Assembly (NCBI GenBank): GCA_035610835.1
Contig: CM069447.1
Location: 39,406,057-39,470,056 of the forward strand
DNA: 64,000 bases
Source: Ophiura sarsii
Taxonomy: Eukaryota > Echinodermata > Ophiuroidea > Amphilepidida > Ophiuridae
Reading direction: 5' to 3'
In this document: positions 3,001 through 55,400 of the stretch, piece by piece
Layout: each line of letters starts with the position of its first letter
Numbering within the stretch: the first letter of the stretch is position 1
The notes under the pieces: model-generated
Databases searched by the model: none
The model's input: only the letters and a program-made list of their open reading frames with translations
Told to the model about the DNA's origin: nothing
Made by a program: the position numbers and the translations under genes

Positions 3001-6000
3001 AGCCTATTCTGCCCCAGTTCCTGAGGTGTTAGATGTGATCCAAGAATGGGGATCTATATACATCCTAGGAGGAGATCGAAAGGTAAATATGAAACTGTTT
3101 CCCAGGGAACAGGCTGGTTCCAACCGCCACAATCCTGCAATTTAAAGTTGTCATGGAGGATTATGGCTAGATCGTGGAAAATTGCTTTACTAAAAAATGT
3201 TTATAATTCTCACAACTGAAATTCTGATGATACATAAAATGTGGCTTTGATAGTCTTCCAGTTTTGTTGGGAGAGTATTTGGCCTATAGGTGGCCCAGAC
3301 TCCTTGGTCTCACTCCCACCCTGGCCTATTGACTATTGAAATAATACCAAGTTATTATAATAACTGAATCTACTTCATTATGACGGGTATTCGTAATATA
3401 AGTTTAGAGTTTTACAGGTTCGCCGTCGGGCTTCATTATATATGTGGTTATTACAATGTGGTTTGTTTGAAACTTTGCAGCTTTATCATTTACAAGAAAA
3501 GGATACACAAACAAAACTAGAGATCCTCTTCAAGAAAAACCTCTACATACCGGCTATTAAGTGAGTCTATATATTATAATGTACCCTTTAATTTGGTGGT
3601 AAACAAAATAGGGAAGGGGGAAGGGGCAACTGACTTGTTTTCATTTGTTAAAATGAAAGTTGCTCTGCGTTTGTTGAATTAGAAAATAAAAGATGGACAT
3701 TGAAGTTTAGTTCATGCCTTACTCTGCTGTAATAATGGATGGACAGGTTCATAGTTAGGCATGTATATATACTTGTCTATGTTATTCTGAATGGTTTGAA
3801 TGTAAAATTAATGTATTTGCTTTACTATAACTTCCACATGAAAACAGAAATATTATGAAAAATAAACAAATCTGGTTAAATGTTTACTTCTATTTCCGGC
3901 GCGAGCGCACATATGCACTGTGTCCTGTCAGACAGATAAGACACACCCCTCTTTGAAGAGAATGCAGAACGCACAATAAATTGAATATGTTATCTTGCAT
4001 GATGATGTCATTGCAATCTGCAATGGAGTGGCAGCATTTAGAGTAAGATCGCGAAAATCGCAGAATTGAGGTTAAACACGGAAAATGACATTTTGATGAA
4101 AAGAAGAAGAAAAAAAAAATGCACAATAAACGTCCAAAACACAAAATGTATAAATAGTCTTGAATAAAACAATATAAATATTAAAAAACGATACGTAATG
4201 AAACAAAACAAACAATATTTAAATATAAAACTCCGCGATATAGAGGGTCGGCTACCGCTACAGTAATAATAAGGTAAGCCTAAAAATCTAAAATGATGTG
4301 TTTTTCTGTAAAGTGCGTTTATTGTGGTTTTAAAGATCGTAAATTTTAAGCTTCCTTGGGGAAAATTACATCACAGAAAAATGCAAAATTTACAAAGCGG
4401 AAAAACACGGAATTGGACAGTTACAAAGCAGAAAATTTGTGACCTTAATTTAGAGCATCCAATCAAAAGCCTTTCATTTGTTATATTAAACCACTTCCAC
4501 TGCGTAATAATAACACATGAATAGAAATTCAACCATTGCTTACTATGTATGCACACAATTTCTATGCCTGTAATTTTCAGTGTGACAATCTTTATCAGTA
4601 TCTCAGCAGTTGACCCATGGTGACCTTTATTTGGGGTTCACAATCGTTCAGATCATCTACCATAAAACAAGTATATCGAGATTGGATAAGCTGAAACTAA
4701 ACAGAGACAGGGGGGGGGGAGCTACACTACTCAGAAGTCTATAAATAGGTCGGCAACGCTTATAATGGGTCTGACAAGGGGAATAGGATGGCAATACATT
4801 GTTCTGAATATTGCATATATTGTTTGTCATTAATCCAATTTTGTTTGTTTTTGTTTTTTATTCATATTACAGTCTTGCCAAGAGCCAACATTATGACTAT
4901 GATGGTCTGATAGATATATTTACTCAATACGGAGATCATCTGTATAGCAAAGGCGATCACGATGGGGCAATAGCGCAGTATATACGTACCATCGGTAGAC
5001 TAGAACCATCTTATGTTATCAGAAAGGTATGGCTGGCTAGTGGCTTCTTTTTCATATTTACACACCGTTATTTGAATAAAAGTGTTTGAGAATGAGAATG
5101 AATGTATTGTTTTAGCCTCAAAATGTATCCATCGTGTCGTCACTCTTTTGGCGTAGCTTAACATTTTTCTGTCAGATACATGAAGGCTAAAACACCTTTA
5201 TTCTCTAAATATACACACCCGACTGGAATGGATCGAGGCGATTTATATCAAACCTGAAAAGATGGCTTGTCACAGACTAGATTGAGGATGAAACACTGGA
5301 CAATGTGATTTATACAGGTGGTGGCAGAATTGAATTGACTATACCAAAGAATACTAAACTCTCGAAGTTGCACTGACCCCAAATCCAAATCTGACGCGAA
5401 TTGTTATTGAGACATTCCACAAAAATGCAACGCAAGCCCTTGTGCATGAAGCTGCGCTGCGTTGTACCATGCGTTTGCATTTGGGTGAGGGCTATGCCCA
5501 ATATGCAAATATTCAGCGATGCCACAGATGTGCGCCATCAAAAATAGACGCATCGAGCGCCTGTATGAGAATCCACAACCTGATTGCCTACCTCAAGGAA
5601 ATCCTAGCCAATGAAGACCACACCACTCTATTACTAAACTATTTTTGATGACTGGTTTTTCATATTATTGAAAAACTTAGTGTCAGATAGCATAATGATC
5701 AGCATTAAGTCAAAGTGTGTACCAAATATTTATTTTCATAGTTTCTGGATGCTCAGAGGATCCACAATCTGACCGCCTACCTACAAGCCTTGCACAAGGA
5801 AACCCTAGCCAATGAAGACCACACAACTCTATTACTCAATTGCTACACAAAACTGAAGGATAATAGCAAACTGGATGAGTTTATTATGGTAAGAATCACT
5901 TTGTAATATCACATGCAAAATTGTCCATTTGTAAAAATTTATGAACATGGCATGAAAGTTATACAAGGTTAGTGCTGGTTTTGAGTCAACCCCATCGGAG

Positions 6001-52400: not shown

Positions 52401-55400
52401 CTCATAATTTGCAGTGTCACGCCTGGTAGATTATACACTCTTATTCTGCGACGGAGCACAGAGTAAATGTGGACAATCTCTGTATAAAACAAAAAATAAA
52501 TTGTAATGAGAAATGTTGTATTAGCATCACTGATTAATCAGTACAAAAAAATATTTATAATCATAATATTGTAGGAAATGTGATATATTTTGTCATTTTT
52601 GATAAGCTCTTGGACTGCAATTGAAATATGCCATTAGTTCATAATTCAAAACTAAAGAAGGTATCCCCCTTGCTTAAATTCTAAATGTCAAGTAATATAC
52701 TATTTTCTCAAGTGTTAGTAGGGGCCTATGACCCTAAAAGCATCGCCTCCTATCCTGGGCATGCAAACTTACATGTAGATTACTTACTTCTCATTTCCCT
52801 GGTAGGTAGACCATACAACCGTTTACCAATGGCCATCAACGCATCAAGAAACTCAAGCTCTGGTGACAATCGGGGTGCCTGAAATAGAATTATACAGTAA
52901 TAATGATATCATTCTAATAATCAAATCCATTGCATTATTCAGATCTATAATTCTCAACCGATATCAACGGTTTCAAGAAAGGGTGTAACCACAAGCCAAT
53001 CATTAACACTTTTCACGCCACAGGCGTCTGCAGACGACATTCCAAAATGTCACAAAGTGTTTCAAAAATGTAAAAATTATTGAATTTCATTACCATATTT
53101 GGAATCACCATGAGAAATTCATTGGTACAAACATACCTAGTATTGGTTCACTAATCCTTGATATAGACTTTGAAAATTTCGAAACGTTTCTGAAAAATCT
53201 GTTTTTATACATGGTGGTAAAACTAATAGCTAGCCACGTGGAAAGTGTTAACAAACATGCATGCATGCATGCAAGTAACAGTGAACTGTTTCTGCATCAT
53301 ACTGTGTCATAGTGTTTGTGACCCGGAAATAAGCACTTTTTGTAACCCAGGCTAAAACACACAGAGCATGATTGACTTCACATTCACAATATACAGCATT
53401 CATTCAGAGGGTCTACCTTACAGTAGTTCTGATTGGTTTATTACAAGATGTACTCATATGACTAGCCAATTCAAATGCAGCTTGTAAAATGCTTCACTCC
53501 CATCTTTGATTGGCGCAATAAATGATGTATCTATCTTTCTGACCAATCGGCCGGTAGTTCTCAGGGGGTTAAAGAAAGAATCCTCCATCAATTCTCGCCA
53601 TTTAACTCGGCAAAAGAAACTGTACTATTTATGTGATTCCATCGAAAATCTTGCAACTCTGCTCAGGAGCAACATTGCACCAATTGATTCACAGATTCTA
53701 GCCTGAAAAACAAACATACAATCTTTACCGAACAGTGACAATCTGTGTTCGCTGTGCCTTTCCCTCAATCTGGCTGAATTCATTGGCTGAGCTGTTGAAG
53801 TAAGTACAGCAATTACAAAATACCCTCCCAGAAGTGAGGTCACCCATGGATAGCTAATCCTACTCCATCAAAACACAAACAATCTTACCGAACAGTGACA
53901 ATCTGTGTTCGCTGTGCCTTTCCCTCAATCTAGCTGAATTCATTGGCTGAGCTGTTGAAGCAAGTACAGCAATTACAAAATACCCTCCCAGAAGTGAGGT
54001 CACCCATGGATAGCTAATCCTACTCTATCACACGGCTGTTTGACTGTCCGATTTATAATTAAAATTATGGAATAAAAAAAGATAACACAGTGGCCCAGTT
54101 ATGGTTTGACCTGATGTAGGTCGCGCTAATGAATACGAGTATACGGTGAAAATTTCACGAAAATTGTTCGAGCCATTTTTAAATTATCGGCATTTTCTAC
54201 TTTACACACATTTTACATGTAACTCTATGGGAAATGTGGCCGATGAGGGCGCTATTATAGTAAATAATAATATGCAAAGCACTATTTCTCAGAAATGGAC
54301 CAACAAAATGTTCTGGAAATGTCTACAAAAGATGACCAGTATATTCAGGTACTTGAATAAGTTAAAACCAGAACCGGGCCAGCAAGTTACGGTGTTCTCA
54401 GAATAAAACGGACAAATTATGTGGGATCAAACAGCCGTGATCAAAACACACACAATCTTACCGAACAGTGACAATCCGTTGTTCTCTGTGCCCTTCCCGC
54501 CATCTGATTGAGTTTATTGGCCGAGCTGTCAAAGCAAGTGCAGCCGTTACAGAACGCCCTCCCAGAGGTCAGGTCACCCATGGATAACTGCCCTGGCGAG
54601 TAACTGTTCACTCTACGTAGACTCGTCTCCTGTGCGATATTCTGTGCTAAAGCTGAAGTGGAAAAAAAACACAATTCAAGTGTTAACAATTTCAAAATTA
54701 CATTAGATCAACTTAAAATATGCCATAAGAACCATTCCATGCCAAGATGACAATATGTCTGTACCTCAAGTCCGTCCCGCATGTCCGTCTCTCACATTAT
54801 AAAATAAGATCAAAGGTCATAGGGGGCACCCAAACTAAAAATATTTTTTATGTTTTTTTTCTCTCAAATGGTATTTGTTATCTGTCAAATATTATACTTC
54901 TAATTGAATTTGATAAATATTGTTGATTTTAGAAATTAGTCTAATTTTGTCTGTCCCTCGCATTATTTTTTTAATTTTTTTATCGAAGTCCCTCCGCGAT
55001 CCTAAGTGCATTGGACTTGTAATTTTTTGATATTCATAAATTGTTTCATTCTCTAATTCATAATTTGTGAGAAAATTTAATAAAAGTTTAAAATAAAATA
55101 TTGTAAAAATTTAAAATATTGGTTGTGTAAACAATTTTTAGTGACGTCCGTCCTCACGCATCAAAAAACGACTCCTACTTAAAATCGCAATGTTAATTTC
55201 ACTATATAATACATTGAAAATGTGTTAGCAAGAATACATACGATGTAATAATTATGGAAAGCAAATCTATTTCCGTCCCTCATGTGAGAGACGGAATTGG
55301 ATCACACTCTTTTGTGTGTACTATGGCAGTAGTTGTACTGCCTGGCTTAATTATATAATGGAAGGCTTTAATCGCATCATGGTAGCAGGGCCTTAGCCAG

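Follow-up and report, generated by a model that had tools for sequence, protein, structure and literature searches.

Internal gene duplication, reportedly described by Gao and Lynch in 2009, comprises short duplications inside genes that take in parts of exons; the VPS11 and PI4KB gene models of Ophiura sarsii analyzed here differ from it in having neither a new intron nor a coding repeat. Exon duplication that leaves degenerate intronic copies is also a described class, for which Exonize was run on 20 genomes. According to the available excerpts of that work, about 4 to 7% of vertebrate genes show full-exon events, and significantly more of them show partial and intronic events (PMC12343006). 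The present locus resembles this class in that partial or degenerate exon copies lie in introns of their own gene. It differs from the cases in those excerpts in that fragments rather than whole exons were copied, in two neighboring genes, and in an echinoderm (PMC12343006). Tandem exon duplication can also give rise to mutually exclusive exons (Letunic 2002, as cited in the excerpts of PMC12343006). Here, too, an exon copy adjoins its parent, but the fragments lack one or both splice sites, and only the copy of the VPS11 tail is intact to its stop codon. The short copies close to their source, the 4-bp microhomology at one junction and the inverted fragment are reminiscent of templated insertions and microhomology joining, although the other junctions here are too old to reveal a mechanism. 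In new Daphnia introns, direct repeats have been linked to staggered breaks (PMC4202315, excerpts). The partial literature searched, queried by name only for VPS11, the NPF motif and EHD1, contained no exon copies at this locus, no paper treating the three terms together, and nothing related on partial exon copies. The locus provides a worked, roughly dated example of exon copies piling up around conserved genes.

The window, i.e., the whole stretch of 64,000 nucleotides analyzed, carries VPS11 and PI4KB (Table 1), whose exons were located by tblastn with the human VPS11 and PI4KB sequences. The VPS11 model, the 5' exons of which lie outside the window, has 906 residues and the PI4KB model 689, both in an open frame. 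The best match came from Amphiura filiformis for both proteins, at 85% over 100% of the query for VPS11 (among 120 matches listed of 2019) and 91% over the whole query for PI4KB (among 120 listed of 1618). Among the matches listed, sea stars and sea urchins rank after it in both cases. An earlier note on this DNA used exon numbers one higher than the numbering of the present gene models.

Table 1. Genes, exon copies and inserts in the window (positions within the window)
Feature	Position	Strand	Description
VPS11 gene	799..24782	+	20 exons in window, spliced model with open frame
VPS11 exon 8 fragment copy	5567..5638	+	parent 5756-5839 within exon 5742-5888
Short fragment of exon 8 3' end and donor site	6756..6784	+	parent 5882-5910
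VPS11 exon 10 fragment copy	7451..7549	+	parent 8073-8171; exon 10 is 8115-8261
Transposon-like insert between exon 10 and its copy	7760..8067	.	inverted ends, 8-bp flanking repeat CTCTTCAA
VPS11 exon 11 fragment copy	8844..9221	+	parent 8689-8751; exon 11 is 8659-8764; pieces 8844-8860 and 9181-9221; insert arms 8862-8899 and 9145-9182
First 689-bp unit	24484..25172	+	NPF-rich last-exon tail (24484-24832), 3' UTR, MITE, truncated second element
Second unit	25173..25850	+	tail copy (25173-25515), 3' UTR, same MITE inverted, second element
Minisatellite	42368..43271	-	periods 59, 79 and 152 bp
PI4KB gene	43223..58752	-	12 exons modelled in window, open frame
Inverted fragment of PI4KB exon 49129-49290	48951..48986	+	parent 49208-49244 (- strand)
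Two head-to-tail exon-c copies	53707..54030	-	3' part of exon c (54462-54652) and donor flank; copies 53707-53855 and 53867-54015, 160-bp period

Local copies were searched for by comparing the window with itself by blastn, keeping matches at most 1500 bp apart and of at least 38 bits, and dropping low-complexity matches. Five dinucleotide-shuffled windows gave one match before and none after the same complexity filter, and chance was thus rejected as the source of the copies. At the DNA level, partial copies on the same strand lie no more than 1.5 kb away from 6 of the 32 modelled exons; a further PI4KB exon, with an inverted copy, is the seventh exon affected. The copies resemble within-gene exon duplication debris in that coding-exon sequence is repeated in the adjoining intron or flank. 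The partial exon copies that the earlier note had described in VPS11 and PI4KB were recovered by this self-comparison and by alignment, and its periods of about 190, 306, 156, 689 and 160 bp correspond to 189, 306, 155, 689 and about 160 bp. Its seeding of a minisatellite by the PI4KB last exon also stood, the last 49 bp of the coding sequence and the 3' flank being found in the repeat. The inverted PI4KB fragment and a 29-bp piece from the donor end of exon 8 are additions to its list. Its term "tandem" suits the three cases that are truly head-to-tail without a spacer, namely the VPS11 tail unit, the exon-c pair and the minisatellite, but does not suit the exon 8, 10 and 11 fragments and the first exon-c copy, which, together with the inverted fragment, are separated from their parents by a spacer.

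The exon 8 copy has an offset of 189 bp, and 117 bp separate its end from the stretch of exon 8 that it matches; the alignment shows 65 identities and 7 mismatches as well as a 12-bp deletion. The match ends within the exon on both sides, and five of the changes are synonymous and two nonsynonymous. The 29-bp donor-end fragment has 26/29 identities (40 bits). For the exon 10 copy, 86 of 99 positions are identical; it includes 42 bp of upstream intron and the acceptor, which is kept with a score of 9.8, and stops before the donor. Its six coding changes comprise three synonymous and three nonsynonymous ones. Its offset of 622 bp shrinks to 306 bp when the 308-bp insert is subtracted together with one copy of the 8-bp repeat flanking it. 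An insert of about 320 bp with inverted arms of 38 bp each divides the exon 11 copy into two pieces; the left half of the copy has an offset of 155 bp, and with the insert excluded, the copy shows 54 identities against 4 mismatches, with 5 gap columns, two of the four changes being nonsynonymous. In the exon 10 and exon 11 pairs, the transposon-like inserts push copy and parent further apart.

In PI4KB, the two exon-c copies (offsets 736 and 573) match the exon only from inside and lie about 430 bp from their parent. They align to exon c with 130 and 123 identities and 23 mismatches each, and to each other with 155 identities. The second copy contains a stop codon, and 10 of 22 changes between exon c and the copies are nonsynonymous when exon c is counted once. 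Usable splice sites and a frame for use as an alternative exon are absent in the exon 8, 10, 11 and exon-c fragments.

Read in the parent frame, 17 of the 39 changes in the fragments of exons 8, 10, 11 and c are nonsynonymous. This is somewhat below the fraction of 0.58 expected for a free copy whose parent changes silently only (binomial lower tail 0.044). Further marks of decay among the fragments are one stop, one 12-bp deletion and one insert. Judged from these changes, the fragment copies are probably mostly free of constraint, as would be anticipated for debris, with some surplus of silent change. Divergence of the copies from their parents or from each other ranges from 2.5 to about 17%. 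Rough ages were derived from a rate borrowed from another species, 1.885e-9 substitutions per site per year in Amphiura filiformis (PMC11310086, excerpts), rather than from Ophiura sarsii itself. On this scale, the exon-c pair would be about 7 million years old and the exon 10 copy about 50 million years (7/42 intron sites). The tail unit would be about 20 million years old (25/354 noncoding differences), an age that is invalid if its differences are old haplotype differences. Given the spread of divergences and ages, the copies stem from separate events. The earlier note had proposed separate events over a long time, and the exon-c copies agree with it, showing 4/159 mismatches mutually and 23/153 between copy 1 and exon c. 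As a whole, its interpretation was supported in part: separate events and duplication of intron DNA as well were borne out, and the high local duplication rate that it suggested for the locus or genome is conjectural. Its wording also held in part: "tandem" fits the three cases named above, and "decayed" applies to the fragment copies but not to the VPS11 tail copy, which has no nonsynonymous change.

We consider it probable that the copies are the mutational debris of local DNA duplication. Local DNA events, of at least two kinds, would have duplicated stretches of 30 to 690 bp and left each duplicate no farther than 1 kb from its origin. The spacer-separated short fragments look like those left by template switching or templated repair of breaks, and the head-to-tail duplications (tail unit, exon-c pair and minisatellite) like those left by slippage or microhomology joining; the repair mechanism behind the copies is one that we infer, whereas the copies, their structure, the extent of the exon excess and the drift-like change of the fragments are observed. 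Both kinds of event would fall on introns and exons alike, and 4 of the 11 direct clusters indeed touch no exon, with one more touching an exon by 7 bp. As an exon parent hardly changes, its copy would stay recognizable about twice as long, leaving exon copies over-represented, and the copies would later drift and take insertions. Retrocopies were rejected because several copies bear noncoding flank, i.e., 42 bp of intron (exon 10), donor flank (exon c and exon 8) and UTR (tail).

Plain decay does not account for the VPS11 tail unit, the only such case. By blastn, the last-exon tail is repeated at an offset of 689 bp with 94.6% identity, and the second copy codes for the same 98 residues and a stop. 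The unit ends inside the second element, where the junction shares GTAC with the exon, and the MITE has opposite orientation in the two units. Over 99 codons including the stop, the two tails differ by nine synonymous and no nonsynonymous changes, without indels. If one tail were free, the probability of 0/9 nonsynonymous changes would be about 3.7e-4 (0.416^9), or 9e-4 without the first codon; against the other copies, the corresponding value is 0.012. The noncoding part of the units differs at 25/354 aligned sites, with gaps, and the tails differ from each other at 9 of about 78 synonymous sites. Gene conversion as the sole cause of the intact tail was rejected by argument, because post-conversion differences in a free copy should still be mostly nonsynonymous. 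The intact copy makes a small, cleanly testable puzzle of selection versus captured haplotype divergence.

The differences between the tails may predate the duplication, if the tails come from two diverged haplotypes that a germline exchange, or the assembler, brought together; a free copy would then carry synonymous differences only. We give this account somewhat less than an even chance, and rank it as slightly more likely than selection on the second tail. It would explain the lack of nonsynonymous changes without invoking function, and it draws support from Amphiura filiformis, in which heterozygosity is 3.22% and the assembly needed haplotype purging (PMC11310086, excerpts). However, the noncoding and synonymous differences given above are high for alleles. 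Moreover, the two units meet within an N-free element at a GTAC microhomology rather than at a homologous overlap, and the MITE is inverted between the tail copies.

As a possible but rather unlikely alternative, selection may have maintained the second tail as coding sequence; splicing from a phase-2 donor farther upstream could, for instance, make it an alternative last exon. The silent-only change over 99 codons without indels speaks for it, as do the gapped noncoding differences within the same unit. Acceptors were scored for AGs from 25040 on, eight of which lie between 25040 and the tail; real acceptors, each left out in turn, scored 0.2 to 12.7. The AG at 25145-25146 scores 3.1, which is above the two weakest of the 32 real acceptors and at the 89th percentile of all AGs. 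This acceptor requires a phase-2 donor, however, and the penultimate VPS11 exon ends in phase 0. The sole open AG in phase with that exon, at 25101-25102, scores only -7.5 (25th percentile of all AGs), so that splicing from the penultimate exon into the second tail in frame was judged unlikely. Phase-2 donors of VPS11 are located at 1754, 3560, 12857, 14147, 16590 and 18019; joining from donor 16590 would skip the RING exons. Splicing the second tail to a phase-2 donor would give a VPS11 that ends in the NPF tail but has lost its RING domain partly or entirely. It seems improbable that tandem duplication has given VPS11 a second functional and selected 3' end with NPF motifs, spliced to one of these donors, and that the gene makes a full RING form alongside a RING-poor form with the NPF tail.

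Turning back to duplication debris as the preferred reading of the fragment copies, we compared its expectation for exons with the observed excess. The tests used direct copies only and were run with dispersed repeats masked (23% of the window), the mask combining a window-derived part with the hand-set segments 22000-24029 and 61900-64000 and the N gap. Masking left 11 local direct clusters, 6 of which overlap an exon by 20 bp or more, compared with 3.0 expected when the exon map is slid along the unmasked DNA (p 0.034). Over 12 settings, 6 of 8 to 12 clusters touch exons versus 2.6 to 3.2 expected (p 0.012 to 0.076); with the minisatellite left out, the counts are 5 of 7 to 11 versus 2.0 to 2.7 expected (p 0.019 to 0.113). 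Both sets together give an excess of 1.9 to 2.5-fold. The visibility of copies of 60 to 300 bp was simulated for intron parents under free drift and for exon parents whose rate of change was set to 0.1 or 0.3 times the neutral one. In this simplified simulation, with ungapped scoring and indels treated as breaks, exon copies stay visible 1.66 to 1.99 times longer than intron copies. The slower change of exon parents can therefore account for most of the exon excess, and exon targeting is not needed. The numbers support the earlier suspicion that intron DNA duplicates as often, unseen, the observed excess being about that predicted from slower decay (1.7 to 2.0-fold). There is some room for a weak exon bias, as the excess reaches 2.5-fold. 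The simplifications of the simulation, the upper end of the excess and the silent-only change of the tail copy weigh against debris.

We give little credence to exons being preferred duplication targets, whether via transcription-linked breaks or selection for exon gain: the exon-touching clusters at twice their expected number, and up to 2.5-fold under strict settings, would favor it, but the excess is near the slower-decay prediction, and p is as high as 0.11 under some settings once the minisatellite is left out. Genome-wide claims that duplication favors exons have to exceed a detection bias of about 2-fold. The two genes were chosen because copies were seen in them, and a rate taken from this window alone would therefore be biased upwards.

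That all copies are assembly artefacts is hardly credible, since despite a 100-N gap in the window and the high heterozygosity of the relative Amphiura filiformis (PMC11310086, excerpts), the copies lie in several separate places, are diverged to the extent given above and have indels and inserts of their own.

The inverted PI4KB fragment aligns to its parent with 32 identities, 4 mismatches and 1 gap (41.9 bits). Inverted local matches of at least 38 bits number 39, of which 21 are non-palindromic, and exactly one touches an exon. Most exon copies are direct, and with 1 of the 21 non-palindromic inverted matches on an exon, template switching stays putative; the single inverted exon fragment is compatible with it.

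An inverted fragment of a PI4KB exon lies in the intron next to its source; it was overlooked in the earlier note and is counted here among the exon copies. A PI4KB intron contains a direct duplication of 76 bp (80% identity, offset 179 bp); in type it matches the exon copies, except that no exon is involved.

The window also harbors transposon-like sequences. A 208-bp inverted repeat (93% identity) lies directly past a VPS11 exon and is perhaps a transposon pair. An element is present in two inverted copies separated by 18 kb; given that the copies are 99 to 100% alike across 112 to 141 bp, it was probably active recently. 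Between the penultimate and last exons of VPS11, long reverse-transcriptase-like reading frames are discernible by eye, and the segment appears by the same inspection to be a LINE-like element.

Coordinates of the features in the window
Feature	Position	Partner or source
208-bp inverted repeat	12867-13074	13395-13602
LINE-like segment	22097-23927	
VPS11 last exon	24141-24782	
Element in two inverted copies	33655-33916	52057-52422
76-bp direct duplication	46180-46434	
Inverted PI4KB exon fragment	48951-48986	49208-49244

The last exon of VPS11 encodes a long tail at the C-terminus of the protein. This tail carries five NPF motifs, and such motifs are ligands of EH domains. Among the 120 matches listed, 111 VPS11 homologues have a recognisable YFG anchor and were included in the count, and the tails of 19 of them contain at least two NPF motifs. 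The listed holders include echinoderms, hemichordates and one each of amphioxus, nemertean, annelid and millipede. Zero or one motif was found in most of the listed molluscs, the named vertebrates (entries P0060, P0069, P0073, P0084, P0086 and P0114) and the sea-cucumber (Apostichopus japonicus) model P0008. Our literature search found no paper combining VPS11, the NPF motif and EHD1. In P0008, four RING exon pieces are arranged head-to-tail (SAKIFQVSKCSVC...), representing either further exon duplication within VPS11 or a model error.

Among the matches listed, the VPS11 and PI4KB proteins of several species, such as Amphiura filiformis, Asterias amurensis, Ptychodera flava and Patella vulgata, are both assigned to a contig of equal size, which suggests that the linkage of the two genes is old.
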